From positions 1 to 64,000 of the IMG/VR virus record IMGVR_UViG_3300021478_000216: a stretch of 64,000 bases of DNA; one strand, written 5' to 3'. Under the pieces are notes generated by a model. That model worked only from the letters and a program-made list of their open reading frames with translations. It was not told where the DNA came from and did not search any database. The position numbers were made by a program, and so were the translations under genes. Source of the stretch: a virus. Shown piece after piece: positions 284 through 62,267 of the stretch. Position 1 is the stretch's first letter, and each line of letters starts with the position of its first letter.

Positions 284-333
284 CCTGTCCGAGCCGGCCG
301 CAGATAGGCTTGTGACCTTCCGACTCGGACAGG
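284..333 (-). other. stem-loop of the GTCCTG family (copy E5)
   Basis: CCTGTCCGAG (284-293) pairs with CTCGGACAGG (324-333). Read on the minus strand the stem extends through a G-U wobble to CG/CG. It lies between the stop of the gene ending at 344 and the start at 265. Its left flank reads GGGCCTTGGAGG on the minus strand, which includes the downstream ribosome binding site. Related stems lie at 60511-60580, 60586-60652, 62156-62182 and 62217-62267. Confidence 0.7.
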
Positions 334-343
334 ACGTTGAGGG

Positions 344-520
344 TTAGACCTCGCCGAGGCGCTTGTTGCATTCGTCTCGTAGGTCCCGAACTTCCTGCTC
401 TGACAAGGCGACCTCGATATAAGCGATCATGCCTCCATCATCCTGAATCTTTCGGATGACGAGTATGCCAGCCTTACTTCCATCTAGGGCTGCTCCGCTG
501 AATCTAGCGAAGGTCTTCAT
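344..520 (-). CDS. small hypothetical protein, 58 aa
   Basis: ATG at 520 overlaps the TGA of the upstream glycoside hydrolase gene as ATGA, the usual coupling in this arm; a longer in-frame extension to 652 is a shadow. The protein is soluble, with a beta-rich N-terminal half (SKAGILVIRKI) and an acidic C-terminal helix (SEQEVRDLRDE). No family recognised. Confidence 0.65.
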   Translation of the reverse strand: MKTFARFSGAALDGSKAGILVIRKIQDDGGMIAYIEVALSEQEVRDLRDECNKRLGEV

Positions 521-1683
521 GTAGCCGCCACTATGAACGCGTTGAGCGCCTGTGTCTTCGGGACACCGTTGCTGTCGAAGAGACCGAATAGGCCTCCGTC
601 GTACGAGTTGTCCCACCAGGAGAAGATGAACAGCGGTCCTGCCCACGACCACGTGCGTGCCTTCTGGAAGGCTTGCGTGATAGATTCAGCCTCGAACGCA
701 GTGCCGTACTGGTCCGTCGGCGCTCCGAACTCGGTGAGCCAGATCTGCTTGTTGCCGTCGCCATGGGACACCATGATCTGGTGCATTTGGGGCAGGTAAG
801 CCCAAGGGTTCCAGGAGTCGTTCGTCTGGCTGGGCAGGTCTGGGAAGCTGTAGGGATGGGTGTTCATCCCGTCGAAGTATCCCTGCGCACCGTCTGCGTA
901 CATGTCCTGGAGATAAGGGATCGGTTCAGGGTTCCCGGGGCCTAGTCCTCCTACTAGGACTACTGCTGTAGGCTCCATAGACTTGATCGTAGTGTATGAG
1001 GCCTTCAGGATGGCAGTGTACTCCGCTGCTGAGATTCCTCTCAGGTTCGGTTCGTTGATTATCTCGTATACGTGGACGCCTAGTGGCCAGAGTGTCTGGA
1101 CATCCGCTGTGGCGTTGGATGATGTGTCGGATGGGTTGCTACCGTTAACGATGGCTTCGACGCTGATTCCAGCTGCGATGAGTTGCTTGACGACCCCTGC
1201 GTGAGAGTTTCCGCCTGCATCCATGCGCCACCACTTGACGCCGTCGGTCTTCATCATCTGAATGATGCTGGCTTGTTGACTTGACGACATGTTGTCTAGA
1301 GTATCCTGGAAGCCTCCTCCAGGACTAATACTTGCTGGGACTCCTGTGATAGAGCCCGAAGTAGACGGAGGTGTAGTAGTTGTCTGAGTTACCGACGACG
1401 GGACAGTAGTGGTTGGTGTAGTCGTCGTCGGAGTTGTAACGATCGGTGTAGTAACGGTAGGCGTCGGAGTAGGCGTTGGAGTCGCGCAGGGCTCTTCGGT
1501 GTGTCGGATATGTGGCGTACTCGAGTGATGGTGTGTACGGGTAGGCGTTGATGATGCGACTACTAGGTGTGTTGCTGTAGGAGACTGTGAACTAGGGTTA
1601 CTGCCTCCTACCAGCACCAGACTTATGCCTGTTGCTGTCAGAGCTCCTATTGCCGTTCCGAATGTTCGGATCGGTGGTCGCAT
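517..1683 (-). CDS. secreted glycoside hydrolase, clan GH-A-like
   Basis: 388 aa. Residues 1-27 form a signal peptide or membrane anchor, residues 28-112 a Ser/Thr/Pro-rich linker with HHH and TPTPTPT runs, and about 120-388 a TIM-barrel-like catalytic region. EIINEPN (E211) fits the acid/base motif and WLTEFG (E318) the nucleophile motif of GH5/GH39-type retaining enzymes; both glutamates are present. The substrate cannot be read from sequence; a cell-envelope or capsule glycan is plausible because the neighbours also act on the wall. The start has GAGAGG upstream. Release during lysis or surface modification are both possible roles. Confidence 0.75.
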   Translation of the reverse strand: MRPPIRTFGTAIGALTATGISLVLVGGSNPSSQSPTATHLVVASSTPTRTHHHSSTPHIRHTEEPCATPTPTPTPTVTTPIVTTPTTTTPTTTVPSSVTQTTTTPPSTSGSITGVPASISPGGGFQDTLDNMSSSQQASIIQMMKTDGVKWWRMDAGGNSHAGVVKQLIAAGISVEAIVNGSNPSDTSSNATADVQTLWPLGVHVYEIINEPNLRGISAAEYTAILKASYTTIKSMEPTAVVLVGGLGPGNPEPIPYLQDMYADGAQGYFDGMNTHPYSFPDLPSQTNDSWNPWAYLPQMHQIMVSHGDGNKQIWLTEFGAPTDQYGTAFEAESITQAFQKARTWSWAGPLFIFSWWDNSYDGGLFGLFDSNGVPKTQALNAFIVAAT

Positions 1684-1994
1684 TGCGACCTCTCTTTCTC
1701 TTGGGATCCGCTCCCCAAGTCTTTGCGAACATGGTGGCTCGGATTACTTCGGCCGCTGCCGGGAGGCTTTCGACCTTCTTCAATCGGTCCGCCCGCGTCC
1801 TTGTACGTTATTCCTCGGAGGAAGTAGCTGACGGATGGTCGAGATATCCTGTACATCTTCGCTATCCATGCCATAGGTATGTCGTATTCAGCTCTGATGA
1901 TGCGGGCTGCCCTGACTTCAGCGTCCGTCATTGCGGCGTTGTTGTTGTTTTCACCGCGCTGGTAGCTAGAGTTATTATACGGCACCGGAATCAT
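1647..1994 (-). CDS. small helix-turn-helix protein
   Basis: 115 aa. Residues 22-60 (from MTDAEVRAARIIRAEY, with IAKMYRISRPSVSYFLRG) match the short HTH that binds DNA in many phage regulators and next to HNH nucleases: a helix, a turn, then a recognition helix ending before a K/R-rich tail. The C-terminal 50 residues are polar and low complexity. The start overlaps the previous gene by 20 bases; an internal ATG at 1931 is a possible alternative. It overlaps the glycoside hydrolase start by 37 bases. Confidence 0.6.
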   Translation of the reverse strand: MIPVPYNNSSYQRGENNNNAAMTDAEVRAARIIRAEYDIPMAWIAKMYRISRPSVSYFLRGITYKDAGGPIEEGRKPPGSGRSNPSHHVRKDLGSGSQEKERSQCDHRSEHSERQ

Positions 1995-2385
1995 CTAGGT
2001 TTTCGGGTTTCGGGGGATTACGCCGCTTTCCTGTGAGTGATTGTTGCGGGAAGAAGCTATAGGGATCGTGTGGGATTCCATAGCGTGCAGTCGAGCCTGA
2101 TTGATCTGCGGCGTCGGTATCCCAGCATTGCACTGTTCTGAAGCCTATTCCATGACGACGATGCCTTGTGTACATCAAGGTCATGATAGTTATGAATGTT
2201 AGGGCTAGATACATCGTAAGGGTCTGAAGTATTCCTATGGTGAGAAAGAACCAGACCGTAATGATACATGCTAGTATGATGATTGGTATAGCTAGGACTA
2301 CTAGTCCCATACCTAGTAGCATATGCTTACTGGGGGACAAATCGTCCCACGGACTGTTTCTGTGTTGAGGAAGTCTGTGTCTCAT
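1975..2385 (-). CDS. two-segment membrane protein
   Basis: 136 aa. Two hydrophobic helices at about residues 23-50 (MLLGMGLVVLAIPIIILACI) and 52-71 are followed by a basic RHRRHG stretch and a polar, proline-rich tail. This suggests a membrane protein with a cytoplasmic C-terminus. It lies among several other small membrane proteins in this arm. No family recognised; a holin-like or exclusion role would be speculation. Confidence 0.6.
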   Translation of the reverse strand: MRHRLPQHRNSPWDDLSPSKHMLLGMGLVVLAIPIIILACIITVWFFLTIGILQTLTMYLALTFITIMTLMYTRHRRHGIGFRTVQCWDTDAADQSGSTARYGIPHDPYSFFPQQSLTGKRRNPPKPENLDDSGAV

Positions 2386-2582
2386 TGGCGTGGATTCTTC
2401 CAGTCTCTAGAAGTAACGAAAGATGCTCTCGTGGATAGCATTGTAAGTGTTCCGAAGACTCCTACCCAGAACCAGTTCTTGACGGATATGTTTTCTAGAA
2501 GGAGGTATGAAGAGACGAACTGTAGGATTATGTAGCGTCCTAGTCTAAGTATCAGTTCCTGAGTTGTTAGGCGCTGAGACAT
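2382..2582 (-). CDS. small membrane protein, 66 aa
   Basis: It has a hydrophobic segment at about residues 16-30 and a second at 36-52 (NWFWVGVFGTLTML), separated by a polar turn. The end overlaps the next gene as ATGA. Function unknown; grouped with the neighbouring membrane protein by position. Confidence 0.55.
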   Translation of the reverse strand: MSQRLTTQELILRLGRYIILQFVSSYLLLENISVKNWFWVGVFGTLTMLSTRASFVTSRDWKNPRQ

Positions 2583-2811
2583 ATGATACCTCCTCTATGG
2601 CTTCTCCTGTAGCTGGGCAGATCCAGATGATTGTGAGTCGAAGATCTACGTATCGGAACCCGAAACCTAGCTGGTGCGGGCCGACGTAGGGATGGACTCC
2701 GCAACAGTGCGAGCATCTGATTCCATGAGACTTAGGTAGCGCTCTTTTGTGCTGACTTCCCTTAGCGTTTAGGTAGTCAGCCCACGGGAGACCTGTCTTA
2801 TTCCGGTACAT
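2545..2811 (-). CDS. small cysteine/histidine protein, possible zinc binder
   Basis: 88 aa. CSHCCGVH followed by a later lone Cys (WICPATGE) looks like a partial zinc ribbon; the remainder is beta-rich. The end overlaps the next gene by 38 bases and the start overlaps the previous one by 14. Such short treble-clef-like proteins are common in phage accessory arms. No specific role is visible. Confidence 0.55.
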   Translation of the reverse strand: MYRNKTGLPWADYLNAKGSQHKRALPKSHGIRCSHCCGVHPYVGPHQLGFGFRYVDLRLTIIWICPATGEAIEEVSYVSAPNNSGTDT

Positions 2812-3001
2812 ATCCTGAAGGACTATTAGTAGCTAGCTGTGCCTTAGCGGTCTCTGCAGCTGCGACACCGTTTAGGGCCCCGAGGGTCGATTCTGCCGTG
2901 GTCTTAGCCTTAAGGCGCACTGTCCAGACCTCGTTCGAGTCTTCTAGGTATTCGAGGACTTCGACTCGAAAGGTCCTCTTAATTCCGTCACCGTCAGGCA
3001 T
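2798..3001 (-). CDS. small hypothetical protein, 67 aa
   Basis: The start overlaps the preceding stop as TAATG. The N-terminal half looks like a beta hairpin with alternating charged residues (RTFRVEVLEYLEDSNEVWTV); the C-terminal half is alanine-rich. It is soluble. No family recognised. Confidence 0.6.
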   Translation of the reverse strand: MPDGDGIKRTFRVEVLEYLEDSNEVWTVRLKAKTTAESTLGALNGVAAAETAKAQLATNSPSGYVPE

Positions 3002-3165
3002 TATCGAGTCTCCAGTCCGTATTCTCTTAGTAGGTCGTCTAGTGCGTCTTCGAGGTCGGCGCGAAGGTCGTCTATGAGACCATAGATCTCGGATGGTTTA
3101 GCACGTTCGACTGAGTCCTCGAAGTCTCTGAGGAGCGTGTCGATCTTCGGGATCCTTACTGACAC
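3001..3165 (-). CDS. small acidic helical protein, 54 aa
   Basis: The frame runs from GTG at 3165 to TAA at 3001-3003 and fills the gap between two well-supported genes. The peptide starts MSVRIPKIDTLLRDFEDSVE and continues as a strongly charged amphipathic helix (DDLRADLEDALDDLLREYG), possibly a coiled coil. AAGG lies upstream, and the leader resembles that of the neighbouring gene (CGAAAGG...CCGAAG or CTGAAG before the start). Function unknown. Confidence 0.6.
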   Translation of the reverse strand: MSVRIPKIDTLLRDFEDSVERAKPSEIYGLIDDLRADLEDALDDLLREYGLETR

Positions 3166-3167
3166 CT

Positions 3168-3494
3168 TCAGGGCCTTTCGGTGTTAGTGTTGCCTAGTTC
3201 AGTACCTTCGAAGTTAAGATCTGCGAGGATAGTCGATTTTATACTCATGTAGCCTATTCGCTTAGTCCCGATAGCAGGCATCTGCCACCGTGTCATGTCT
3301 GTTTCAGCCATTTCAGCGTCTTCGTATACGTATTCGAGAAGGCGTAGTATCCTAACTGGCTTGCTTGGGGCTTCTCGTTCGGCCCCCAGCTCCATACCTG
3401 CATCGAATGCGTTATGGAGGTCATCTTCTGTGAGCTCGTGATAGTGCGGACCGTCTTCGCTGTTTCGCCAGTGTTCAAAGTTCTGGTGCACCAT
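3168..3494 (-). CDS. hypothetical protein, 108 aa
   Basis: The start at 3494 is chosen over the upstream in-frame ATG at 3602 because GAAAGG precedes it and it overlaps the previous gene by only 20 bases. The protein is acidic and helical in the first 60 residues (ELTEDDLHNAFDAGMELGAE), then more beta-like. No motif recognised. Confidence 0.6.
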   Translation of the reverse strand: MVHQNFEHWRNSEDGPHYHELTEDDLHNAFDAGMELGAEREAPSKPVRILRLLEYVYEDAEMAETDMTRWQMPAIGTKRIGYMSIKSTILADLNFEGTELGNTNTERP

Positions 3495-4111: not shown

Positions 4112-4120
4112 GTCGTTGCC

Positions 4121-5453: not shown

Positions 5454-5538
5454 GGATGTCTCCTAGCCTTTACGGATATGGGACACTCATGACCAGAGGG
5501 CGACCTCCTTGATATTGGAAATAGAATCGGCCATGAGC

Positions 5539-7478: not shown

Positions 7479-7915
7479 TACGTGTCGCCGTAATCAACCT
7501 CATTCTGGGTCATTGTTCTACCTATTTTCTGGAACCATAGGTTTCTCCACCTTTGTCGCTGGTTAGAGAAACGTTCGTAGAATGCGTTCCATAGAATTTC
7601 TCGGTTCTGGTCTGAATCATCCAACAGACTTGGATCTTCTCGTGTGAGGCGCATCCATTCGAGCTCGAAGTACGGGTCGTTGAACATGACGTCGCCGTCT
7701 ACTTCGCGAACTCTTTCACGGACGATAGTTCGGAATCGAATCTTCTCGGCTTCACCTAGCGGGCTACTCGGTAGACCTAGGTTGAAGTACCGACGCATTT
7801 CTTCTTCTGACCGGTGTATAACTCTGCCACGTTCGTTTACGCGGCCTCCTCGGAGACCCCTGAACTTGTCCTTGAGTATTTCCCAGTCCGAGTCACTAAC
7901 AGGCAACCAACTCAC
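7478..7915 (-). CDS. hypothetical protein, 145 aa
   Basis: GTG start at 7915 overlaps the upstream TAG. It is a charged, Arg/Glu-rich helical protein (FRTIVRERVREVDG, RFSNQRQRWRNLWFQ). No membrane segment or known motif. Its tight coupling to the polymerase-like gene suggests a role in the same process, for example as a nucleic-acid-binding partner, but nothing in the sequence proves this. Confidence 0.65.
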   Translation of the reverse strand: MSWLPVSDSDWEILKDKFRGLRGGRVNERGRVIHRSEEEMRRYFNLGLPSSPLGEAEKIRFRTIVRERVREVDGDVMFNDPYFELEWMRLTREDPSLLDDSDQNREILWNAFYERFSNQRQRWRNLWFQKIGRTMTQNEVDYGDT

Positions 7916-8124
7916 TACTCCACCTTGGAGAACTGGAACCAGACGACATTACCCCTGATATGTACTCTTACTGGCTGACTTCGTATTCGCGCGTGGTATC
8001 GTAGTAGTGTTCGAAAGTTCTTAGGCGTTGTGTAGAAGTCTTTACCACGGGTAGCTTTCCAGATAGTACCGTCAGTTAGTTCGTTCCAGTCGTACTTGGG
8101 AGGTCGTCCGATTCTCGGAGGCAT
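7915..8124 (-). CDS. paralogue of the WNE-TDG small-protein family
   Basis: 69 aa from ATG at 8124 (MPPRIGRPPKYDWNELTDG), chosen because it follows the previous stop by four bases; the longer frame to 8289 overlaps that gene. It shares the layout GRPP-x-Y-x-WNE-x-TDG-T ... DF ... F ... AR ... V ... F with the genes at 9423-9680 and 61798-62121. A basic first segment and C-terminal beta strands (VHIRGNVVWFQFSK) could suit nucleic-acid binding. Function unknown. Confidence 0.65.
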   Translation of the reverse strand: MPPRIGRPPKYDWNELTDGTIWKATRGKDFYTTPKNFRTLLRYHARIRSQPVRVHIRGNVVWFQFSKVE

Positions 8125-9270: not shown

Positions 9271-9433
9271 TCTTTCTCGCTTGCGCGCTAGCAGCTGCTG
9301 ATAGTACTTGGCCTACTAGATACAGTGCTTCTATGCGTGTGAAGCCTGAGTTTACGTAAGACATAAACAGCTCGTGAGTGCTCGCAGCTGACTCCATAAG
9401 AGGAGTTATCGGGTCCTTGGGGTCATTCGGCAT
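9263..9433 (-). CDS. small hypothetical protein, 56 aa
   Basis: ATG at 9433, with AAAGGAGGAG upstream, opens a frame that ends in TGA at 9263-9265, overlapping the next start. It fills the gap between two firm genes. Starts MPNDPKDPITPLMES; helical, with SGFTRIEALYLVGQVLSA resembling a short HTH-like or protein-interaction helix pair. Function unknown. Confidence 0.65.
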   Translation of the reverse strand: MPNDPKDPITPLMESAASTHELFMSYVNSGFTRIEALYLVGQVLSAAASAQARKND

Positions 9434-9680
9434 TTGGGGTCTCCTCCTTTGCGTCCTTCTTGGAAAACTGGAACTCGATGATTCCCTCTTCAGGGCTTCC
9501 CGTAGCTACACTCATTCCCTCTTGGCGTGCTCGAAGATGTAGTGCTGTCTGGAAGCTTGCAGGGCTACAGGTAAAGTCTTCATCTTGCTTGGCTCTCCAG
9601 ACTGCACCGTCTGTCCATTTGTCCCAAGGGTAGTAACGACGCCTTCTCGGTGCAGAGACGTCTTCGACACGCTCAGCCAT
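9423..9680 (-). CDS. first leftward gene; WNE-TDG family paralogue
   Basis: 85 aa. YYPWDKWTDGAVWRAKQ followed by DF, SFQTAL, AR and IIEFQFSK aligns with the proteins at 7915-8124 and 61798-62121. It has a basic RRRR segment just before the conserved core. As the promoter-proximal gene of the left arm it could be an early protein. TGA overlaps the region of the next start. Function unknown. Confidence 0.7.
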   Translation of the reverse strand: MAERVEDVSAPRRRRYYPWDKWTDGAVWRAKQDEDFTCSPASFQTALHLRARQEGMSVATGSPEEGIIEFQFSKKDAKEETPNAE

Positions 9681-9854: not shown

Positions 9855-10139
9855 ATGTCGATCGGTCATGGGCTTGTAACCGTTACGACGGCAGCCGCAC
9901 AGATCATCTGCACTTCTAACCAGCCTGTGCTGATGCAGAATATTGGCGCTAACCCTGTGACTATTGGCGGTCCAGGTGTTACTGTAGGTCACGGCGTGAC
10001 GTTGCCCGCTAACATGACCTCACCGATATCGGTTCCTTGTGTCGGAGGCTCTGGGACTCCTCTAGGCGTGCCTATCTATGGAACCGCATCAGGTGGCTCT
10101 TCTAACGTTGTCTTCTTGACTGCTACTTGGGACGGTTGA
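9855..10139 (+). CDS. small virion-like protein, paralogue of 10874-11338
   Basis: 94 aa, beta-rich, Gly/Thr/Val-rich, with Cys pairs. The stretch LMQNIGANPVTIGGPGVTVG closely parallels LMNQGPNPVSVGGAGVTVG in the protein at 10874-11338, so the two are paralogues. Composition and position suggest a decoration or fibre-base protein, but neither is proven. First gene after the rightward promoter; GGAGG upstream. Confidence 0.7.
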   Translation: MSIGHGLVTVTTAAAQIICTSNQPVLMQNIGANPVTIGGPGVTVGHGVTLPANMTSPISVPCVGGSGTPLGVPIYGTASGGSSNVVFLTATWDG

Positions 10140-10140
10140 T

Positions 10141-10335
10141 ATGTCTAACGCGCATGCACAGCAGTACTACTTCGGAGCAGGGACTGAAACGAGCGCAGGC
10201 TCCGGTGCGATCGATTCGTACGACCTAGTGATGGACGAACCGAGTGCTCTGTCCGATCCTACGGTCGAGACTCAGGCTCCGCAGCCTGGTCTGAATGCTC
10301 CGATCTCTCAGGACAAGCGGAGGGGGTCCTCATGA
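10141..10335 (+). CDS. MSxxHAxxYY family protein 1
   Basis: 64 aa. N-terminus MSNAHAQQYYFGAG is echoed by the next two genes (MSDQHAQGYYAAPG, MSDAHGAAYNHSPE), with the tail diverging. Polar, Gly/Ser/Pro-rich and probably disordered. Start is coupled to the previous TGA (TGATATG). Function unknown; three tandem copies just before the terminase suggest a virion-assembly or packaging accessory. Confidence 0.65.
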   Translation: MSNAHAQQYYFGAGTETSAGSGAIDSYDLVMDEPSALSDPTVETQAPQPGLNAPISQDKRRGSS

Positions 10336-10586
10336 GCGATCAGCACGCGCAAGGGTACTACGCAGCTCCTGGTCGCGAGACTAACTATCAGACCCATTCG
10401 GTCGAGAGCTGGTCGCTTGACTCCCAGATGGTTGGTCCGACTAGTGGGGTCTTTGACGGCCCAAGCTCCGGCGTCGGTACTAACGCAGTAAACATGGTAG
10501 GCCTTAGCCGGGCAGACCCCAACTCACTGGTGAACTCGGGCGCAGGTCCGATTCCACCAGGCTACGGCGTGATCCCGACTATCTAG
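10332..10586 (+). CDS. MSxxHAxxYY family protein 2
   Basis: 84 aa, same N-terminal signature as its neighbours, then a polar Gly/Pro/Ser-rich region ending GPIPPGYGVIPTI. Overlaps the previous gene as ATGA; GGAGGGGG precedes the start. Function unknown. Confidence 0.65.
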   Translation: MSDQHAQGYYAAPGRETNYQTHSVESWSLDSQMVGPTSGVFDGPSSGVGTNAVNMVGLSRADPNSLVNSGAGPIPPGYGVIPTI

Positions 10587-10595
10587 GAGACAGTA

Positions 10596-10874
10596 ATGTC
10601 CGATGCGCACGGGGCGGCGTATAACCACTCGCCCGAAGTCAACAAGCAGTCAGGCGATCTGCCTTTCTGGCAGGACAACAAGGACGATTGGGGCGGCTAT
10701 GGCGGCCCAGCGGGCCTGCCGATGGAGTCTCACAACGACGGTGACAACGATACCGACGACATCGGTACGTACGGTTCGATCCCACGACCTGTCGAGAACC
10801 AGGCGTTCGGGCAGACCAACGGCTTTCTGACGCCAGGACAACGAGGCTATGACTCCGGCGGAGGCTGGAACTAG
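10596..10874 (+). CDS. MSxxHAxxYY family protein 3
   Basis: 92 aa. MSDAHGAAYNHSPE at the N-terminus relates it to the two preceding genes; the middle is acidic (DNDTDD), the end Gly-rich. AGGAGACAGTA before ATG. Its stop overlaps the next GTG start (TAGTG). Function unknown. Confidence 0.65.
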   Translation: MSDAHGAAYNHSPEVNKQSGDLPFWQDNKDDWGGYGGPAGLPMESHNDGDNDTDDIGTYGSIPRPVENQAFGQTNGFLTPGQRGYDSGGGWN

Positions 10875-14593: not shown

Positions 14594-15346
14594 ATGCCTG
14601 GTAGGCCGCAGAACAACGACGTTAACGACGATGTCACTGACGACGACGTTACCGACGATACTTCTGGTGACGACACGACTGACGACGTAACCGACAACGC
14701 TACGGACGACAGCGCGGATAATCAGGACCAGCAGGACGATACTCAGGATGACACTCAGCAGGACCAGGGCAGGAAGCCTAGGTCTCGCACGCAGCAGGGT
14801 CAGAACCAGAATCAGTCCAAGCAGGATCCTGACGACCCGATGGCTGGTCTGAGAAAGGCGTTGCAGGCTGCTAGGCAGGATGCGCGTAAGGCTACAGCCG
14901 ATCTTAAGGCGCTTCAGCGCCAACACGCGTCGGCAGAAGAACGTGCGCTACTCGACGCCAAGGAGCAAGGTATCGAAGAAGGCAGAACTGCTACTCGTGA
15001 GCCTCTAGTAAGGGCTCTTGTGGCTGCGAAGCTGGAAGCGGCCGGAGTACAAGGCACTAATACTCCTAGGCTCGTAAGGCTGTTGGATCTCGACAAGATC
15101 GACCTGGACGCTGAGGGCGACATTGTCGGTCTCGACGACCAGGTCGACGAGCTCAAGACTGAGTTCCCCAACCTGTTCGCGCCTGCGGGCAGTAACGGGA
15201 CTCGAGCACCGAACGTGAACGGCGGAGCCGGTAACGGGCGGACGAAGGACAAGCAGGACCGCCAGGAGCCAAAGGGCTTCGCACAGCAGTTGGCGGATAT
15301 GGTCACAGGATCAGCTCCCGTAGGCCAAGGTCTAGTAGGTAGGTAA
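14594..15346 (+). CDS. scaffolding protein
   Basis: 250 aa. The first 80 residues are extremely Asp/Thr- and Gln-rich (DVTDDDVTDDTSGDDTTD), followed by a predicted coiled coil (about 85-135) and a short C-terminal region. This composition and the place between portal and capsid fit a scaffolding protein that shapes the procapsid and is then lost. Confidence 0.82.
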   Translation: MPGRPQNNDVNDDVTDDDVTDDTSGDDTTDDVTDNATDDSADNQDQQDDTQDDTQQDQGRKPRSRTQQGQNQNQSKQDPDDPMAGLRKALQAARQDARKATADLKALQRQHASAEERALLDAKEQGIEEGRTATREPLVRALVAAKLEAAGVQGTNTPRLVRLLDLDKIDLDAEGDIVGLDDQVDELKTEFPNLFAPAGSNGTRAPNVNGGAGNGRTKDKQDRQEPKGFAQQLADMVTGSAPVGQGLVGR

Positions 15347-15389
15347 GTCGGCCACCGCTGGGTGACGACTTTGATAAAGGAGGTGAAGC

Positions 15390-16427
15390 GTGGCTCAGTC
15401 CACGTTTACCAACTGGATCCCGGTTGAATACGGGGCCCAGGTGATCCAGAGGGTCACCCAGCACAGTGCTGTTGAGTCGTTCGGCCAGCAGATCATGATG
15501 ACGTCCAACTCGCGCTACGTGTCGCGTGACCAGGGTGTTCAGGCTGGCCTTGTGACCAAGGGCAGCACCTACGCGGTCGGCGGCGGTACTCAGGGCTTCG
15601 GTACCAACGACGACGCTGAGGATGCAGTGCTTCTGACCGCCGGTAAGTGGGGCACAGAAGTTGACATCGCCGAGGAAGACATCATGGACTCCCTCGCTGA
15701 CATCATCAACTCCAAGTCCAACGCGATCGGTACTGCTCTCGCCAAGGTCTATGACAATGCGTCTATTGGCGTCAACGCAGCTCCGGGTGCGACGAATGCT
15801 CAGACCACGTCAGTGTACTACGGTCTGACTCATACCAACGCGGCCGACAGCTACACCGCGAACACGAACTACAGCGCGGGAGCGGCTAACTCCCACGGTG
15901 CGGTCACGTACGCGCAGCTCTCCACGTCGCTGGGTCAGGTCGAGCAGGGTGACTACTTTAACGAGGAGGACATGATCTGCATTGCTCACCCGTACTTCCG
16001 GCAGCAGCTGCGAGGTATCGTGGACGGGCAGAGCCGACCGATCTTCCAGGAGTCGTCAGGAGGGTTCCCGGGTGGCGGCCAGGGTCCGACGCCTGACCTG
16101 ATCTTCCGCATTCCGGTGTTCTGGAGTCTGGGTGCGACGGTTACGGCGACCCCGTTGTCGACGTACGCAACGCCGAACTACGCAGGCTCGTCAGGCTCTG
16201 CCGCGGCTGGGACGGCGGGTAACCGTCTTCTCATCTTCTGTAACCGTCTGTACCTGCTTGCGGGTAAGAGGACCACGAACCCGAATAACCCGCAGGCTAC
16301 GCCCGAGTTCCAGATCGTGCCACCTATGTACTCCGGCACGGACACGACCATCCTGCGTGGTCGCATGAGGCGCGCGTTCTCGATGGGTATCGAGTTCGCG
16401 TTCTCCATCTTCGAGGCTGTCAACTAG
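15390..16427 (+). CDS. major capsid protein
   Basis: 345 aa from GTG at 15390 with GGAGGTG upstream. HK97-fold features: short N-terminal arm, TKGSTYAVGGGTQGFG, TAGKWGTEVDIAEEDIMDSL, and a C-terminal FSMGIEFAFSIFEAVN. Codons are mostly C-ending, unlike the flanking genes, as expected for the most highly expressed gene. Followed by a GC-rich hairpin. Confidence 0.9.
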   Translation: MAQSTFTNWIPVEYGAQVIQRVTQHSAVESFGQQIMMTSNSRYVSRDQGVQAGLVTKGSTYAVGGGTQGFGTNDDAEDAVLLTAGKWGTEVDIAEEDIMDSLADIINSKSNAIGTALAKVYDNASIGVNAAPGATNAQTTSVYYGLTHTNAADSYTANTNYSAGAANSHGAVTYAQLSTSLGQVEQGDYFNEEDMICIAHPYFRQQLRGIVDGQSRPIFQESSGGFPGGGQGPTPDLIFRIPVFWSLGATVTATPLSTYATPNYAGSSGSAAAGTAGNRLLIFCNRLYLLAGKRTTNPNNPQATPEFQIVPPMYSGTDTTILRGRMRRAFSMGIEFAFSIFEAVN

Positions 16428-20364: not shown

Positions 20365-21213
20365 ATGACAGCTCAGCTCGTTACTTTGATAATAGACCGT
20401 ACAGATGGTGCGGAAAATCCCTATACTCAAGGATCGGGCGTATGGATTCCCAGCTCGGAAATTCCAGATCCTGCGGACCACATACTTATAGGACAAGACC
20501 CGATACCTTTCATGTTCAGTGCGGGAGCTTTTCCAAGCGTCCAACTGGTAGCTAACGATACTGCTGGTCCCCAGCAGTCAAGTGGAGCGCCTGGATGGTC
20601 CTGGATAGTCAAGTACGGGAGTAACGTACCTGGTAATCCTCCCTCTGCATCATACTACATACTTTCGACGAACGGACTGACTCAACGTCTCAGTCAGCTA
20701 GTGCCTATTCCGTTAATACAGCCGGGTATAGAGTACGTTTCTGCAGTCAATAGTAAGACTGGTGCTGTAGTCTTGAGTGCAGCTGACGTCGGTGCTTTGG
20801 CTAATCCGTCGCCTGCTGGAGGTGCTCTATCTGGGTCTTATCCTAATCCAGGGTTTGGTTCTGGTGTTATGGGTGGATATCTGGCTCCGAAGGTTAAGAC
20901 ACTAGTAGATGGTGCTAGCGTGCCTGTTGACCTGAGTCAGGCCAATCTGTTCCGTTGGCTCCTGAATAGTCCTGGACATTCACTAGCTAACCCATCTAAT
21001 CTAGTTGACGGACTAGCTTTCGTGGTCAGGATTATTTATGGAGGTCCTTATACACCTTTGTTTGGAACTGCTTATGAGTTCGGGTCGGATGGTCAGCCTA
21101 CCTGGTCAGCTTCAGCTGGTAAGATAGATGAGGTTGGGTTCGCGTACAACGCTGATGCAGGTGCAGGTTCCGGTTCTCTGACGTGCAGGGGCTGGAAACT
21201 CGGTTATACTTAG
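20365..21213 (+). CDS. fibre-like virion protein
   Basis: 282 aa from ATG 20365 (AGGAGGG upstream); a further in-frame start at 20317 is a shadow. The N-terminal domain is beta-rich; SKTGAVVLSAADVGAL followed by GGALSGSYPNPGF is a motif frequently found at the base of phage fibres. The C-terminal 100 residues form another beta domain. Probably a head or tail fibre component. Confidence 0.65.
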   Translation: MTAQLVTLIIDRTDGAENPYTQGSGVWIPSSEIPDPADHILIGQDPIPFMFSAGAFPSVQLVANDTAGPQQSSGAPGWSWIVKYGSNVPGNPPSASYYILSTNGLTQRLSQLVPIPLIQPGIEYVSAVNSKTGAVVLSAADVGALANPSPAGGALSGSYPNPGFGSGVMGGYLAPKVKTLVDGASVPVDLSQANLFRWLLNSPGHSLANPSNLVDGLAFVVRIIYGGPYTPLFGTAYEFGSDGQPTWSASAGKIDEVGFAYNADAGAGSGSLTCRGWKLGYT

Positions 21214-21253
21214 TATAGGTTCAACTACAGGGGCTGAGAGAGGAGATTAGGTC

Positions 21254-23590
21254 GTGACCTTCACCGCTGCCGGTACCCTCACGGAAGCCGAGAACGCGGT
21301 CGCGGCGACCAGCACGACGTTCTCCCTGACCACCAATACTGTTGGTAACTTCATCCTGGCGCAGTTCGCCTGCAACACGTCCTTCGCATCAGCGGTCACC
21401 AGCACCCGGTGCACCTGGACCCAGTTGGCGCCCGCCACCGGGGCGGCGTCATTCACGTTTAGTTCCCCGTTTAACTCGAATATCTGGATCGGCCGGGTAA
21501 ACAGCGTCGGCAGCGACACTGTATCGGTGACGTTCAACGCCTCGATGGGCGGGGCAAACTGCCGGTTTGACGCTCGCGAGTTCCACTCCAGTACAGGAGT
21601 CGCTGTGCTGGAAACCTACGGCACGGTTAACACGGCGGGAGGAACCAGCAGCTGGGCGACACTGACCCCGGCTGGCTCAGGTCGGCTTTACTGGGGCTGG
21701 TGTGAGGACAGCGGGTCGGCGGTCGCGGGTTCCACGTCCGGGTTCGTCTACGAGCCTGACAGTCATAGCAACGGTGCTGGTTACTGCCTAAGCGTATCTT
21801 CGGCCTATACTCCTGTGTGGGGAGACAGCAGCCAGGTAGCAGGCATCATGGTCCTAGTCAGCGGGACCCTGCCAGGTATAGATCAGCCGTCTATTCAGCC
21901 CGGGCCAACGTGGATCCGGCTCTTTAAGCCTGGACTCGTTAAGCCAGTACCAAGTATGCCTTGGCAGCGAGCTACTGGAGAGTCTGGGACGCTAAGTATT
22001 GTAATACCGTCTCTAACTGTATCGATAACGGCGTCTTATGAGAACAGTAGTAGTATTCCTGCTATTGCACCTGGGCCTACATGGCTAGATCACTATAAGC
22101 CAGGATCGACGCATCCTGTGCCGATCACGGTGTCTAGTAGTACTACAGTTGAATTTGGCACGCTCAATATTGTTCTACCTGCTGTAACATTTAATCCTTC
22201 TGGTACTGATGTTAACCCTATCGACGTTTCTATGATCAATCCAGGCCCGACCTGGCTGGATCTGTTTAAGCCCGGAATCCAGAGACCTAGACCTGTAACA
22301 CCTTGGCAGCAGGTTACGATTGAATTCGGGACGCTAAATATAGTTCTTCCTGTAACTAGCCTAATCCTGACAGGTACTGATGTTAATCCTGTCGATGTTT
22401 CTGGAATTAATCCAGGACCTACTTGGCTGGATTTGTTTAAGCCTGGACTTTCTAGGGCGAGACCCGTAGTACCCTGGCAGCAGATTACGGTTGAATTCGG
22501 TTCTCTTAATATTGTTATACCACCAGTACTGTCGACTAGTATCACGTCGGTTCAGACTAATCCTAATGACGTCTCTATAATTAATCCGGGACCGACCTGG
22601 CTGAACCTGTTTAAGCCTGGACTTCCTAAGCCTAAGCCACTGACTCTTTCTAATGTTGGCGGCCTTATTGTTGAATCCGGTACTCTTAACATTATTCTTC
22701 CTGTATTGAGTCTAGCTCTTGCAGGCACTGACGTTAACCCTATTGATACTCCCGGGATCAATCCAGGACCTACGTGGATCGAACTATTCAAGCCTGGGTT
22801 TTCCAAGCCTAGGCCTGTAACACCTTGGCAGCAGATCACAGTTGAGTCTGGCTCATTTAATATTGTTCTTCCTGCTATTAGCCTTGCACTTACGGGTAGC
22901 GATGTTACACCTATTGACGTTCCTAGTATTAATCCGGGACCAACGTGGCTAACACTCTTTAAGCCAGGCTTTTCGAAGCCTCGGCCTCTTACTCTCTCTA
23001 TTAATGCTCTAGCGATTCCTACAGAGTCTGGTATTCTAAATATCGTCTTGCCTGCAGTGAGTCTAGTACTGTCGGGTAGCGATATTACGCCGATCGATAC
23101 ACCTAGTATTAAGCCAGGGCCTACTTGGCTAAGTCTGTTTAAGCCTGGGTTGTCTAAGTCTAGACCTATTACGCTTACTAGTAGCGGAATTGCAGTCTTT
23201 ACTGAATCAGGTACTCTTAACATAGTTCTGTCAGTACCAGTCTTTACTCCTACAGGTATTGACGTCACGCCGACTGATATGCCTGAAATTAATCCAGGAC
23301 CGACTTGGTTGGCTTTGTTTAAGCCGGGACTAGTCAGACCTCATGTGCTCACAGTCTCTAGTAGAGTTACTGTTGAGTTCGGCACCTTTAATGCAGGCTT
23401 GAGTTCTCCTATAGTAACTCTAGCGGCCATACAGACGAACCCGAACGACGTTCCAGTATTCAATCCTGGACCAACTTGGTGGGCTTTGTTTAAGCCTGGT
23501 ATCTCGAGGCCTCATCCGGAAGGTCTTTCGGTAGCAGTTACTGTGGGATCTAGAGTATCTACCGGTCTACTTATGGCATCGATCATCTAA
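21254..23590 (+). CDS. adhesin-like repeat protein B
   Basis: 778 aa from GTG 21254. Residues 1-205 form a beta-sandwich-like head domain. Then ten units of 55-65 residues follow, each with PGPTW-x-x-LFKPG-x-x-x-PxP, a PWQQITVEFG or similar link, LNIVLP and a spacer such as GTDVNPIDV. DNA encoding the head domain (to about 21870) is visibly richer in GC, with GCC/ACC/CTG codons; the repeat part uses GCT/CCT/ACT/CTA codons and many CTAG sites. This points to a swapped head domain. Probably a surface adhesin; no literature function known to me. Confidence 0.72.
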   Translation: MTFTAAGTLTEAENAVAATSTTFSLTTNTVGNFILAQFACNTSFASAVTSTRCTWTQLAPATGAASFTFSSPFNSNIWIGRVNSVGSDTVSVTFNASMGGANCRFDAREFHSSTGVAVLETYGTVNTAGGTSSWATLTPAGSGRLYWGWCEDSGSAVAGSTSGFVYEPDSHSNGAGYCLSVSSAYTPVWGDSSQVAGIMVLVSGTLPGIDQPSIQPGPTWIRLFKPGLVKPVPSMPWQRATGESGTLSIVIPSLTVSITASYENSSSIPAIAPGPTWLDHYKPGSTHPVPITVSSSTTVEFGTLNIVLPAVTFNPSGTDVNPIDVSMINPGPTWLDLFKPGIQRPRPVTPWQQVTIEFGTLNIVLPVTSLILTGTDVNPVDVSGINPGPTWLDLFKPGLSRARPVVPWQQITVEFGSLNIVIPPVLSTSITSVQTNPNDVSIINPGPTWLNLFKPGLPKPKPLTLSNVGGLIVESGTLNIILPVLSLALAGTDVNPIDTPGINPGPTWIELFKPGFSKPRPVTPWQQITVESGSFNIVLPAISLALTGSDVTPIDVPSINPGPTWLTLFKPGFSKPRPLTLSINALAIPTESGILNIVLPAVSLVLSGSDITPIDTPSIKPGPTWLSLFKPGLSKSRPITLTSSGIAVFTESGTLNIVLSVPVFTPTGIDVTPTDMPEINPGPTWLALFKPGLVRPHVLTVSSRVTVEFGTFNAGLSSPIVTLAAIQTNPNDVPVFNPGPTWWALFKPGISRPHPEGLSVAVTVGSRVSTGLLMASII
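21890..23520 (+). repeat. ten tandem PGPTW/KPG coding repeats
   Basis: Units recur every 165-195 bases. The best conserved DNA block encodes NPGPTWL-x-LFKPG, and copies differ at synonymous sites, so the repeats are old or diversifying rather than freshly duplicated. The antisense frames over them look long only because of this periodicity. Confidence 0.85.
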
Positions 23591-56710: not shown

Positions 56711-56746
56711 GACCGCTCCCGAACATTATTATTCTTTCCTTACTTA

Positions 56747-56776: not shown

Positions 56777-56807
56777 GAGGCTCCAGCAAGATCTTTTTGA
56801 GATACCG

Positions 56808-57227: not shown

Positions 57228-57229
57228 CG

Positions 57230-59207: not shown

Positions 59208-59275
59208 TAGACGTCGTCATCCATTTCAGGATGATCGCACAGAGCTTCGACCAGATCGTGTAGCCAGTTATGCAT
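59207..59275 (-). CDS. possible 22-aa peptide
   Basis: ATG 59275 with GGGAGGTG upstream; MHNWLHDLVEALCDHPEMDD followed by DV and a TAA overlapping the next ATG. The strong site and exact coupling suggest a leader peptide for the next gene rather than a functional protein. Confidence 0.45.
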   Translation of the reverse strand: MHNWLHDLVEALCDHPEMDDDV

Positions 59276-59359
59276 TGCTAACACCTCCCGATTATTTCGT
59301 ATTTAGTATTTGGATTACTGGCCTATAGTTGAAAAGAACCTGGCTGTTTACTGAATTGC

Positions 59360-59740
59360 TTATACGGCTTCTTCTAGGAGTTCTTCCAGGCGCGCTTCGA
59401 GTATTTCAACGCGAGACTCCAAATCCGTGATACGTTCCTGTTGCGCCATCCATCGCTGACCACCCTGAGCAAAGGCTGCACGCGTCGGAGGCTTAATGAC
59501 TAGCCACTCGCTGGGGATCCCGCGGCCTCCACGGATCTTCTGCTGTATGCAACCCATGGTTCGAAGTCTGCGCATAACCGGAGTGTAAATGCTGATCGAA
59601 TAACCGCACTGCTCAAGAAGGTAGGTCGTGTAGCCACGATAGATAGCAACTCCGTCAACTCGACTCTGAGCGGCTTCGTTCATGGCGTCGTAGACCTTGC
59701 AGCACTGCTCGTACAGACGAGCGTCAACAGCTGTAGGCAT
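59360..59740 (-). CDS. winged-helix plus coiled-coil protein
   Basis: 126 aa. Residues 20-75 look like a winged helix (GYTTYLLEQCGYSISIYTPV, then RRLRTMGCIQQKIRGGRG with a basic wing); residues 95-124 are a coiled coil (ERITDLESRVEILEARLEEL). Probably a dimeric DNA-binding regulator. It is the first gene downstream of the structured non-coding region. Confidence 0.68.
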   Translation of the reverse strand: MPTAVDARLYEQCCKVYDAMNEAAQSRVDGVAIYRGYTTYLLEQCGYSISIYTPVMRRLRTMGCIQQKIRGGRGIPSEWLVIKPPTRAAFAQGGQRWMAQQERITDLESRVEILEARLEELLEEAV

Positions 59741-59820
59741 TACCGCTCCTCTCTTACGTCACACTGCTCAGGTATTCTGTGAGGTACATTAAGCCTGCAC
59801 ATCCAGCAACCTTCGGTTGG

Positions 59821-59922
59821 CCTGGGAGCACCTCCCTCTGCACCGCCACGCATGAACAGGATCAGCAGAGCAGGACCGGCTTGCCTTTTCGCGATCGACC
59901 ATCCATAGGAGGTGCTCCCAGG
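59821..59922 (-). other. 15-bp perfect inverted repeat, about 72-base loop
   Basis: CCTGGGAGCACCTCC (59821-59835) pairs with GGAGGTGCTCCCAGG (59908-59922). An inner CTCTGC/GCAGAG pair can stack inside. Too long in loop for a simple terminator; looks like the closing helix of a folded RNA. Confidence 0.6.
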
Positions 59923-59928
59923 GTTATG

Positions 59929-59971
59929 ACCGGGCTGCCAGCTGTCCACATTACGCATCTGGCAGCCCGGT
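59929..59971 (-). other. 13-bp perfect stem-loop
   Basis: ACCGGGCTGCCAG (59929-59941) pairs with CTGGCAGCCCGGT (59959-59971) over a 17-base loop. No T run on either side. Confidence 0.6.
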
Positions 59972-60215
59972 GATTGAGTCGCCGGCTCGATACTAGCGCA
60001 CGTGAAGGCGTGCTCTCGACTTCGGACCTTACTCAAGGGTCCTCGAGGTTGAGTATTCCTGCCGGCTACGATTGTAGATCCCGGGAGGGCTGAGCCGCTC
60101 TTGGTCTCGTCAGGGGGAAGACGGACGCACGCCGCCGGGCCGGCGCAATGCCTAGGTTGGACCTGACCTTCGTATCCTCTTGTGTGTGCCCCATTTACGG
60201 ATAGTCGACCTAGGA

Positions 60216-60247
60216 AGGCTCTGCAGCAGAGTCGTACTGCAGAGCCT
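60216..60247 (-). other. 11-bp stem-loop next to the tRNA-like fold
   Basis: AGGCTCTGCAG (60216-60226), 10-base loop, CTGCAGAGCCT (60237-60247). It begins three bases after the tRNA-like element when read leftward, so it could be a 3' processing or termination hairpin. Confidence 0.55.
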
Positions 60248-60250
60248 CGA

Positions 60251-60328
60251 GCCGAAACCTGGATTCGAACCAGTGCGTTGCGATCCGAGCGCAAACTCGG
60301 TGCTGACGTCCGACTACGTCGTCTCGGC
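60251..60328 (-). ncRNA. tRNA-like element (degenerate)
   Basis: Read leftward: acceptor GCCGAGA pairs with TTTCGGC (one G-T); D-arm ACGT-AGTCGG-ACGT; T-arm CTGG-TTCGAAT-CCAG. The anticodon arm CCGAG-TTTGCG-CTCGG resembles tRNA-Ala(TGC) but has a six-base loop, and there are extra bases on both sides of it. No encoded CCA. It may be a decayed tRNA, a tRNA mimic, or chance; a T-loop this exact makes chance less likely. Confidence 0.4.
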
Positions 60329-60442
60329 ACGACGAAGGGGACACCAGAGGTGTGGTTCAGCATAGAACGGATGTTCAAATTCATCCCACCGCTCAGCCTG
60401 CGCTTCACCTGCGTTGTCCCCTCCGTCTTTCGTCCGACTTTC

Positions 60443-60492
60443 GGTTCCTTTAGTCTCAAGGCATCTTGGGTTGTCCCTTGAGCCTTGGAACC
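60443..60492 (-). other. nested stem-loop with CTCAAGG arms
   Basis: GGTTCC (60443-60448) / GGAACC (60487-60492) encloses CTCAAGG (60455-60461) / CCTTGAG (60476-60482). CAAGG also flanks the GTCCTG stems at 284 and 62156-62267, suggesting a shared element. Confidence 0.5.
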
Positions 60493-60510
60493 TAGTAGCT
60501 GGACGCTTGG

Positions 60511-60580
60511 GTCCTGCTCGGGCGTGTGGTCGTCATCTGGGAGCTCCCAGACGGATCGTTGCCACTTCCCCGAGCAGGAC
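60511..60580 (-). other. GTCCTG-family stem-loop (copy E2)
   Basis: GTCCTGCTCGGG (60511-60522) pairs perfectly with CCCGAGCAGGAC (60569-60580). The loop contains the 16-base palindrome TCTGGGAGCTCCCAGA (60536-60551), giving a second hairpin inside. Confidence 0.65.
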
Positions 60581-60585
60581 GTTTA

Positions 60586-60652
60586 GTCCTGTTCGGTCGT
60601 GTCGAGCTCGCAGGTTGATCAATCCTACCCGCCGCATCCTACCGAACAGGAC
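60586..60652 (-). other. GTCCTG-family stem-loop (copy E1)
   Basis: GTCCTGTTCGGT (60586-60597) pairs perfectly with ACCGAACAGGAC (60641-60652). Compared with E2 three base pairs change on both sides, so pairing is conserved while sequence is not. Begins two bases after the stop of the gene at 60655. Confidence 0.65.
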
Positions 60653-60654
60653 GT

Positions 60655-61260
60655 CTATTCGGCCTCGTCGAAATCTTCGTCTGCCGCAAGGTCCTCGACC
60701 GCAGCAGCGTCCTCGAGATCCGGGTCCTCAGCGGCGTCAGCAGCTTCGCCTTCCGGCTTCGCCTTAGGCTGACCAGGCTGGCGCTTCGGGCGATCCTTCC
60801 ACCACTTGAGGGCGTCTTCCTCGACGAGACCGGGCCGCGTGAGCGTCTCGTTGGTGACGGAGTGTGTCTGGATCTCGTCGAACATGTTGCCGGCCTTGTC
60901 GAAGTGCTTGACAGGCATGCCGTTGGATGCCGACTTGCGTACCAGTCCGTAGACCTGCACAGGGCTCATGCTCTCGCCTGCCAGCCCGAGCTCCACCAGC
61001 TTGTGCCGGAAGGCTACAGGGGAGATGTAGCCTTCGGGGAGATCAGGCTTGCGCCTCTCCGGCTTGTCCTTCGCCTTCTTTGACTTGGTCGCCGCGGCCA
61101 GCTGCTCCTCGAGCTCGACGATTCGAGCCTTCAGCTCATCGACGGTCGGCTCGGCCTCGGTAGCTTCGTCTGTTACGAAGTCGGTCTCGGTCATCTCGGT
61201 TGTCCCTTCTTGCTCGTCCGCCGACACAGGCTGTTGAGCGGCTCTACGCCTGCTTGCCAT
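60655..61260 (-). CDS. possible DNA-binding protein with acidic tails
   Basis: 201 aa, C-ending codons (highly expressed). Acidic N-terminus with a coiled coil (DELKARIVELEEQLAAAT), a basic linker (KKAKDKPERRKP), a compact domain about 75-150 (GYISPVAFRHKLVELGLAGE ... VYGLVRKSASNGMPVKHF) that looks like a winged or MerR-like helix, and a very acidic tail. Abundant DNA-associated role inferred. AGGAGC before ATG. Confidence 0.7.
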   Translation of the reverse strand: MASRRRAAQQPVSADEQEGTTEMTETDFVTDEATEAEPTVDELKARIVELEEQLAAATKSKKAKDKPERRKPDLPEGYISPVAFRHKLVELGLAGESMSPVQVYGLVRKSASNGMPVKHFDKAGNMFDEIQTHSVTNETLTRPGLVEEDALKWWKDRPKRQPGQPKAKPEGEAADAAEDPDLEDAAAVEDLAADEDFDEAE

Positions 61261-61310
61261 GATCAGCTCCTGTTGTCCCTAGTCAGCTCCACATTTCTGC
61301 GTATACTAAT

Positions 61311-61340
61311 ATTATAGCTGTAGCCTCAAGGCGCTTGCAA
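61311..61340 (-). promoter_or_regulatory. leftward promoter with AGCCT box
   Basis: TTGCAA (61335-61340), 18 bases, TATAAT (61311-61316). AGTAGCCTC directly precedes the -35, and GTAGCCTC/GAGGCTAC forms an 8-base dyad across the spacer. Drives the abundant protein at 60655 and the structured RNA region. Confidence 0.72.
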
Positions 61341-61390
61341 GAGGCTACTGAGGGGAAAAATTCTTGAATTTTCGCGGACTGTGTTTGTGA

Positions 61391-61801
61391 CTAGAGTACA
61401 GCGATAATTACGGCCATAATTATAACCAAGACTATTATCACATTGATAGACTCTTGAGCAGTCAGCTGCTGTGGTGGTCGCTTCTTGACTGGAGCCTGCT
61501 TAGGCTCCTTGACGGCTACTGTAGTGATAGGCTCTGCGTACAGGTCAGTCATTCGGTCCTTGGCGTAAGCGTGTCCTGTCCTGATAAACTCACTGCGCCA
61601 CCAGTCATAGGTCTGTACTATGTTGACCTTATGCAAGTCCTCGTAGATCGCGTCCGTCGTGGTCCACACAGGACAGTTACTGCATACCTTCAGAGAACCG
61701 TTTTCAGGCCGAACTATACGACAGGTGTAGTTCGAACTTGGGCCGTGTCGATAGTTCTGGCAAGTGCCTCGGAACTTATCCTGATCTACTTCGATAGTCA
61801 T
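61391..61801 (-). CDS. Cys-rich protein with C-terminal membrane anchor
   Basis: 136 aa. CQNYRHGPSSNYTC and VCSNCPVW give four cysteines in the first 50 residues (zinc or iron-sulphur site); the last 20 residues (INVIIVLVIIMAVIIAVL) form a tail anchor. ATGA overlap with the previous gene. Function unknown. Confidence 0.6.
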   Translation of the reverse strand: MTIEVDQDKFRGTCQNYRHGPSSNYTCRIVRPENGSLKVCSNCPVWTTTDAIYEDLHKVNIVQTYDWWRSEFIRTGHAYAKDRMTDLYAEPITTVAVKEPKQAPVKKRPPQQLTAQESINVIIVLVIIMAVIIAVL

Positions 61802-62121
61802 GACTCATCATCGGTCTCTTCCCGCTCGAACTTGAGCAGGACGTAGGTATTGCCTGGCTGAAGGTGTCGAGATTCGTTGTTCACTTTGACCTCCAGCGGG
61901 TTCTTTGCACTATTTGGAACGGCTATAGTAGAAGCTGTCACATGGAGTCCTCGGACACGTGCAGTACGTCGCGCTAGGAGTACGAAGCTTTCAGCCATGC
62001 ACCGGAAGTCCTTCTTCTCAACTAGGAGACGCTCCGTACCATCAGTCCACTCGTTCCAAGGGTAGGCTGGTGGACGACCTAGACGGACAGTGCGGTCTTC
62101 GTTCGGGTAGTAGTTAGTCAT
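61798..62121 (-). CDS. WNE-TDG family paralogue, third copy
   Basis: 107 aa. VRLGRPPAYPWNEWTDGTER, DFRCMAESFVLLARRTAR and a C-terminal YVLLKFERE align with the 7915-8124 and 9423-9680 proteins, with an insertion near the end. Location in the other arm shows the family spread within the genome. AGGAAGG upstream. Confidence 0.68.
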   Translation of the reverse strand: MTNYYPNEDRTVRLGRPPAYPWNEWTDGTERLLVEKKDFRCMAESFVLLARRTARVRGLHVTASTIAVPNSAKNPLEVKVNNESRHLQPGNTYVLLKFEREETDDES

Positions 62122-62155
62122 TAGTTGTTCCTTCCTTTGTAGATACCCTCAAGGC

Positions 62156-62182
62156 CCTGTTCAGCACCCAGAACTGAACAGG
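62156..62182 (-). other. GTCCTG-family stem-loop (copy E3)
   Basis: CCTGTTCAG (62156-62164), 9-base loop, CTGAACAGG (62174-62182), flanked by CTCAAGGC. The shortest member. Lies in the 5' leader of the 62121 gene. Confidence 0.65.
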
Positions 62183-62216
62183 ACTTTCAAGGCAACTACC
62201 GTAGTTACCTCAAGGC

Positions 62217-62267
62217 CCTGCCCGAGCCGCCTCGTAAGGCGTTCCCGCGCCGTACGGCTCGGACAGG
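62217..62267 (-). other. GTCCTG-family stem-loop (copy E4)
   Basis: CCTGCCCGAGCCG (62217-62229) pairs with CGGCTCGGACAGG (62255-62267); the single non-Watson-Crick position is a G-U wobble only if the minus strand is transcribed. An inner GCCT/AGGC hairpin is possible. Between the stop at 62280 and E3. Confidence 0.65.

Follow-up and report, generated by a model that had tools for sequence, protein, structure and literature searches.

The first 64,000 bases of the virus record IMGVR_UViG_3300021478_000216 (78,994 bases; here G000), which we call the window, carry on the minus strand three copies of a two-storey hairpin, the class A element, which lies between neighboring co-directional genes and recurs in diverged uncultured phages. 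Comparison of its copies supports the view that class A elements are selected as RNA structure, and such junction hairpins are very probably a real, undescribed device that controls the expression of the genes they join. Judged by sibling classes that share its plan in the same phages, the class A family is one class of a broader junction-hairpin system. The material consists of metagenomic contigs, and everything said here about function is inferred from sequence. The terminase, portal, and DNA polymerase proteins of G000 identify it as a tailed phage; the terminases closest to its own, with about 43% identity, are those of the Streptomyces phages KimJongPhill and Zuko, which makes an actinobacterial host likely.

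Architecture and distribution of the class A element

A first-pass annotation of the window had described five GTCCTG stem-loops in gaps between leftward genes as one covarying family. All five stems are present where they had been placed, in gaps among the genes that run mostly leftward up to 9.7 kb and again beyond about 41 kb. The window has 9 copies of the core GTCCTGTYC where 1.2 would be expected, and none of 100 shuffles reached this count. Reading the minus strand lengthens three of the stem bases (282-335, 62154-62184, and 62215-62269). The CAAGG boxes that had been noted as flanking several copies exist, but they are part of the structure: they correspond to a 3' box, CTTGA(GG), which stands opposite a 5' box, CCTGAAC, and a further outer helix encloses both boxes. 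The elements are therefore larger than the stems first described (Table 1). The proposed membership of five did not hold up, as the stems at 60511-60580 and 60586-60652 have the GTCCTG core only, without boxes or outer helix. A covariance model gave 59 to 60 bits to the elements at 275-342 and 62147-62191, and its match to 60586-60652 did not reach an E value of 0.5 (E values from these searches are rough).

On the minus strand of the window, the class A plan consists of an outer helix, a conserved 4x4 internal loop (GAAC/CUUG), a covarying inner helix, and a variable apical loop. The internal loop is made of G.G and C.C mismatches around two A-U pairs, so the fold runs from the outer helix through G.G, two A-U pairs, and C.C to the inner helix. 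Inner stems are about 12 to 18 bp long, and the spacers that form the apical loops reach about 100 nucleotides (nt). Comparison with related viral contigs, together with pattern scans, showed that the part that stays constant lies outside the core, 5'-CCTGAAC ... CTTGARG-3', within which the GAA/UUG of the internal loop is nearly invariant. The GTCCTG core itself varies with compensation among relatives (GTCCGG/CCGGAC, GTCCTA/TAGGGC, and GTCCCG/CGGGAC, as well as GGCCTG/CAGGCC, GTCGTG/CGCGGC, and GGACGC/GCGTTC).

A pattern scan of 28 contigs gave 46 matches, reverse duplicates included, compared with 3.5 in simulated sequence, and a stricter scan gave none in shuffled sequence. Class A elements are spread over about 16 distinct lineages of contigs, which carry terminases of at least two types; two elements in contig G005 were found by a relaxed scan. 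Most of the many loose DNA pattern matches had no stem and were discarded, and an exact-pattern scan of genome contigs returned 65 matches, nearly all with stems no longer than the pattern forces. No convincing element was found in KimJongPhill, the nearest named phage by terminase, and a search for a close named relative of the second terminase lineage found none. The whole window has no match to any Rfam family (release 15) at the gathering score, and 59700-62400 gives only subthreshold scores. A host-borne origin was rejected: 397 actinobacterial genomes yielded a single match, of 29 bits (E = 8.4e-5 for one genome, which is not unusual over 397), and none in the 48 to 71 bits of true members.

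Covariation and strand preference

We aligned 29 elements, with apical loops trimmed to 8 nt. RNAalifold, unaided, recovered the same structure from this alignment, with changes on both sides in 18 of 22 pairs; the structure named above has such changes in 19 of 23 pairs. Under the named structure, 90.1% of the paired cells can pair, compared with 72.7% after shuffling, and covariation is 0.509 compared with 0.180, a level reached in none of 500 shuffles; because the inner stem served to find members, its share of this pairing is partly ascertained. Sliding the partners by one column lowers pairing from 90% to between 47 and 53%. The six outer pairs (columns 5-10 with 57-62) played no part in selecting the elements, and they give the same picture: 73.6% are paired compared with 47.3%, with covariation of 0.598 compared with 0.172 (0 of 500 shuffles).

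The strand that folds can also be told. The first-pass annotation had described the odd pairs as wobbles on one strand only, and this is what we see: in the three copies with CAGGGC, the odd pair (GUCC/GGGC) reads U.G on the minus strand but C.A on the plus strand. Across the inner stems of the 29 related elements, the coding strand has 39 G.U cells compared with 7 A.C cells, with 20 of the 39 falling at one position. Full members score 48 to 71 bits in the sense orientation and no more than 35 bits in the antisense orientation. The compensating changes reported for the upper stems were borne out, and the search of related phages with a covariance model that had been suggested found homologues with kept pairing. 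The claim of a selected RNA structure, and not just DNA repeats, is thus supported by pairing preserved in about 16 distinct viral contigs, by strong covariation, and by the sense-strand preference. Transposons and repetitive extragenic palindrome-like repeats were ruled out, as the stem sequences differ and covary.

Position at gene junctions

By the calls of a simple home-made gene caller, all strong elements are intergenic, and both neighboring genes lie on the element's own strand. In 22 of 26 junctions, no more than 11 nt separate the upstream stop codon from the start of the 5' box (median, 5 nt), and a TAA, TAG, or TGA often falls inside the outer helix. The next start codon follows 9 to 41 nt downstream in most copies and is distant or absent in several. 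In the predicted fold, the outer helix joins the upstream stop-codon region, on its 5' strand, to the region before the next gene, on its 3' strand; as the compared copies indicate, the inner helix and apical loop are free to vary provided that pairing is kept. At element 1, one strand of the outer helix contains the TAA that ends gene 344-520, and the opposite strand contains the GGAGG ribosome-binding site of gene 2-265. The relative G001, which is about 84% identical there, keeps the element without gene 344-520 and shows a G-C to A-U double change.

About 10 of the 26 class A copies have the next ribosome-binding site paired in the hairpin, as does, judged by sequence, the sibling AGTG/GAAR class described below. 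Sites that touch the outer helix are mostly paired, with unpaired probabilities of 0.00 to 0.31 in ten copies.

Elements also tend to stand behind genes for secreted proteins. A signal-peptide-like start, as called by a crude home-made rule for the N terminus, was found in the gene just upstream at 8 of 23 independent junctions, compared with 76 of 1,458 other genes (Fisher p = 1.9e-5). Contig G017 has a secreted-protein gene between two elements (15314-15824), and G004 has two small open reading frames between elements (10099-10638), where G000 and G001 have a tandem pair. After the elements at G010 579, G013 42568, and G009 6696, an open reading frame of 15 to 19 codons (ATGCGGAAACTGATG-like), possibly a leader peptide, runs into another small hairpin.

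Sibling hairpin classes

Among 252 other co-directional gaps from eight of these phages, 70 have a hairpin of 10 bp or more close to the stop codon. A survey of architectures with an outer helix, internal loop, and inner helix, combined with a targeted scan, resolved three further classes. The AGTG/GAAR class has 13 copies in 8 contigs, all within gaps, compared with none in simulated sequence. Its outer helices are mostly of the ACCTCC:GGAGGT type, with an ATG just behind, so that by sequence the next gene's GGAGGT-type ribosome-binding site lies in the outer helix and the stop codon lies at or beside the pairing strand. A scan of the collection found true copies of this class in this phage lineage only; the remaining matches had no stem. 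The NTCA/CGGA class has five copies and the AGCG/GGTC class has two. The sibling copies of G000 itself lie at 70 to 77 kb, outside the window. We speculate, while thinking it rather unlikely, that this uncultured actinophage lineage marks its polycistronic mRNAs with modular two-storey hairpins, whose class-specific loops (GAAC/CUUG, AGUG/GAAR, NUCA/CGGA, and AGCG/GGUC) would serve as addresses for dedicated factors acting on separate gene sets, such as secreted-protein genes.

TABLE 1 Junction hairpins of G000 and the features beside them (the window is positions 1 to 64000)
Feature	Position	Strand	Description
Class A element 1	275-342	-	5' box CCTCAAC (variant); 3' box CTTGGAG; inner stem 320-335 with 282-297; 22-nt loop
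Outer helix of element 1	about 342-348 with 269-275	-	TCTAACC/GGTTAGA; includes TAA stop of gene 344-520
Gene upstream of element 1	344-520	-	58 amino acids; no counterpart at that place in relative G001
Gene downstream of element 1	2-265	-	ATG at 263-265; GGAGG ribosome-binding site within outer helix
Class A element 2	62208-62276	-	CCTGAAC ... CTTGAGG; first of tandem pair; TAG stop of secreted-protein gene 62280-63374 lies 3 nt before
Class A element 3	62147-62191	-	CTTGAAA ... CTTGAGG; second of tandem pair; ATG of gene 61798-62121 lies 25 nt downstream
Gene upstream of elements 2 and 3	62280-63374	-	364-amino-acid protein; signal-peptide-like N terminus; no Pfam match
Gene downstream of elements 2 and 3	61798-62121	-	107-amino-acid protein; small family conserved in relatives
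Core-only stem	60586-60652	-	GTCCTG/CAGGAC core; no GAAC/CTTG boxes or outer helix; 2 nt after gene 60655-61260
Second core-only stem	60511-60580	-	5' side of structured noncoding region; covariance model match confined to positions 17-50, 21 bits
Sibling hairpins, locus L016	70322-70361, 73648-73689, 74248-74293, 75825-75866, 76766-76808	-	Loops AGTG/GAAG, NTCA/CGGA, AGCG/GGTC; between stop codon and next ribosome-binding site
Terminator-like 15-bp stem, locus L016	66695-66826	-	T-rich stretch close behind, unlike the elements

Core-only stems and neighboring regions

Behind gene 60655-61260 come the two core-only stems, and behind these a structured noncoding stretch that has no annotation; the stems may be decayed or specialized relatives of class A. 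At the same junction, G005 has a single class A element (21179-21299, with the 3' box TTTGAGG) and no long noncoding stretch.

In the window, this long noncoding region spans 59741-60510 on the minus strand, and it matched no Rfam family at threshold. Most relatives have a noncoding stretch of 360 to 1,000 nt at the same junction, and several share a core like GGGACAACGC...TGGTGTCCC. The minus strand at 60250-60329 has a tRNA-like fold, in which GGTTCGAATCC resembles a T arm and the anticodon arm is odd; ARAGORN did not call it, and it scored 21 bits against Rfam tRNA-Sec (cutoff, 47). By eye, the G001 copy of this fold shows compensating changes in the acceptor and D-arm. The same gap holds strong inverted repeats at 59821-59835 with 59908-59922 (perfect over 15 bp) and at 59926-59944 with 59956-59974.

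The gene downstream of elements 2 and 3 belongs to a small-protein family that has three members in the window (7915-8124, 9423-9680, and 61798-62121, all on the minus strand), with a GRPPxYPWxEWTDG-like motif; most relatives carry the family too.

Proposed translational coupling and its alternatives

Our preferred reading, which we hold tentatively, is that class A is a two-storey intercistronic mRNA hairpin that may couple the translation of neighboring genes. The rigid inner hairpin would loop out the spacer, so that the stop codon and the start region meet in one outer helix. A ribosome terminating at the upstream stop codon would melt that helix and open the next gene's start region, which without upstream termination would stay closed or be poorly used; the conserved internal loop could act as a hinge or protein-binding site that confines melting to the outer helix. 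Since the stop codon abuts the element and often lies in the outer helix, a terminating ribosome would have to disturb this helix. We favor coupling because the hairpin abuts the stop codon, its neighbors are co-directional, and the ribosome-binding site lies within or beside the outer helix in ten class A copies and, judged by sequence, in the AGTG class as well. The covariation of the outer helix and the excess of G.U over A.C cells on the coding strand also speak for it.

Several observations weigh against coupling. Over all class A copies, the ribosome-binding site is not significantly more paired than at other gene starts (0.36 versus 0.41 unpaired; p = 0.27), and we dropped the idea of a general sequestration by class A, which was not significant over all copies. 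In about 16 of the 26 junctions, the site lies outside the outer helix or there is no close start, and in one adjacent copy (G012 14004) its unpaired probability is 0.82. Coupling by itself would need no fixed sequence in the internal loop, and it leaves the excess of secreted-protein genes upstream unexplained.

The main rival is mRNA processing, which we consider possible but doubtful. A double-strand-specific endonuclease, which might be host RNase III or an enzyme of the phage that reads the loop, would cut in the internal loop; the upstream message would keep a protective 3' hairpin, and the start region of the downstream message would be freed. Two helices with an internal loop between co-directional genes are the anatomy of R1.1 in phage T7, and a stem of 12 bp can suffice for a single cut (PMC8708148); the inner stems here measure about 12 to 18 bp. 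Processing would account better than coupling for the copies that leave the ribosome-binding site uncovered, and it would also cover those that have no start codon nearby and those behind secreted-protein genes. However, RNase III is not known to depend on a particular internal-loop sequence, and GAA/UUG here hardly varies; terminating ribosomes would hinder a cut in a hairpin that abuts the stop codon, and a search of 11 records turned up no RNase III domain encoded by a phage. Under either coupling or processing, the fixed sequence suggests that something reads the loop.

That reader could be the whole story if the element were an operator, at which a phage or host RNA-binding protein recognizes the GAAC/CUUG loop and represses or activates the translation or stability of adjacent genes. 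We regard this as improbable. The internal loop is fixed while the helices covary, and the sibling classes have other loops, as different specificities would give. An operator would not need its position at the stop codon, though, and the sole candidate partner found by phyletic co-occurrence, a 106-amino-acid family (71359-71679), lost support and was dropped once elements were found in G005.

It is very improbable that the hairpins are transcription terminators, with or without regulated read-through, that insulate genes such as those for secreted proteins. They are stable, stand just behind stop codons, and are enriched after secreted-protein genes, like the insulating hairpins of phage morons, but the U tract that is the hallmark of intrinsic termination directly follows the stem in none of the aligned class A copies, and the same genome has a clear T-run terminator elsewhere (Table 1). 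With the next start codon 9 to 41 nt away in most copies, there would also be little room for a new promoter. An attC-type DNA recombination site that moves gene cassettes is scarcely credible: the hairpin-gene-hairpin layout around cargo in G017 and G004 and the abutment on the stop codon would fit, but the 3' box CTTGAGG differs from the attC consensus box (GTTRRRY), the folded strand is the coding strand, and a gene beside the same element is present in G000 and absent from G001 without a second hairpin.

Significance and comparison with known systems

Detailed knowledge of the junction RNA structures of DNA phages comes from a few model phages. Described here is a strongly covarying family across diverged uncultured phages, whose conserved loop makes a binding protein or nuclease worth looking for. 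Should coupling or processing be confirmed, the elements would be a recognizable regulation signal in these phages, from which co-regulated gene sets could be inferred by sequence alone, and they could serve as portable parts to connect genes in actinobacterial expression systems. Their association with secreted proteins points to phage genes that may act at the host surface.

In integron attC sites, an R box, GTTRRRY, pairs with RYYYAAC, and the bottom strand folds. Class A resembles attC in its conserved outer boxes, its variable inner stem and loop, and its setting against a stop codon; it differs in that CTTGARG stands opposite CCTGAAC, the coding strand folds, and copies are scattered among ordinary phage genes. 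Hairpins that couple translation by sequestering a ribosome-binding site are known from RNA phages and operons. As in those, RNA pairing joins a stop codon to the next start region, most strongly in the AGTG/GAAR class; unlike them, our hairpins recur as a family in which the internal loop is conserved and the inner hairpin is elaborate, and many class A copies leave the ribosome-binding site uncovered.

The extended start-associated sequence (ESAS) of Cluster K mycobacteriophages is a 17-bp, sequence-conserved imperfect inverted repeat with a spacer of mostly 4 to 13 bp, usually just upstream of the 13-bp start-associated sequence (SAS), and its authors found mRNA pairing unsupported (PMC3203893). 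Like ESAS/SAS, class A elements are repeated inverted repeats in actinophage gene gaps near translation starts, but their pairing covaries, whereas ESAS is conserved in sequence. Identity with ESAS was ruled out, as the copies in Anaya are GTTGACATGCATACAG/CTGTATGCATGTCAAC-like and differ in sequence, and class A spacers run to about 100 nt.

R1.1 of phage T7 is an RNA of roughly 60 nt that lies between genes 1.0 and 1.1 and has a 4/5 internal loop; cutting it yields a mature, protected mRNA (PMC6121014). The class A internal loop is symmetric, nearly invariant in sequence across diverged phages, and locked in position to the stop codon, all of which sets it apart from R1.1. What the two share is the irregular hairpin with an internal loop, set between two co-directional genes of a polycistronic phage mRNA.

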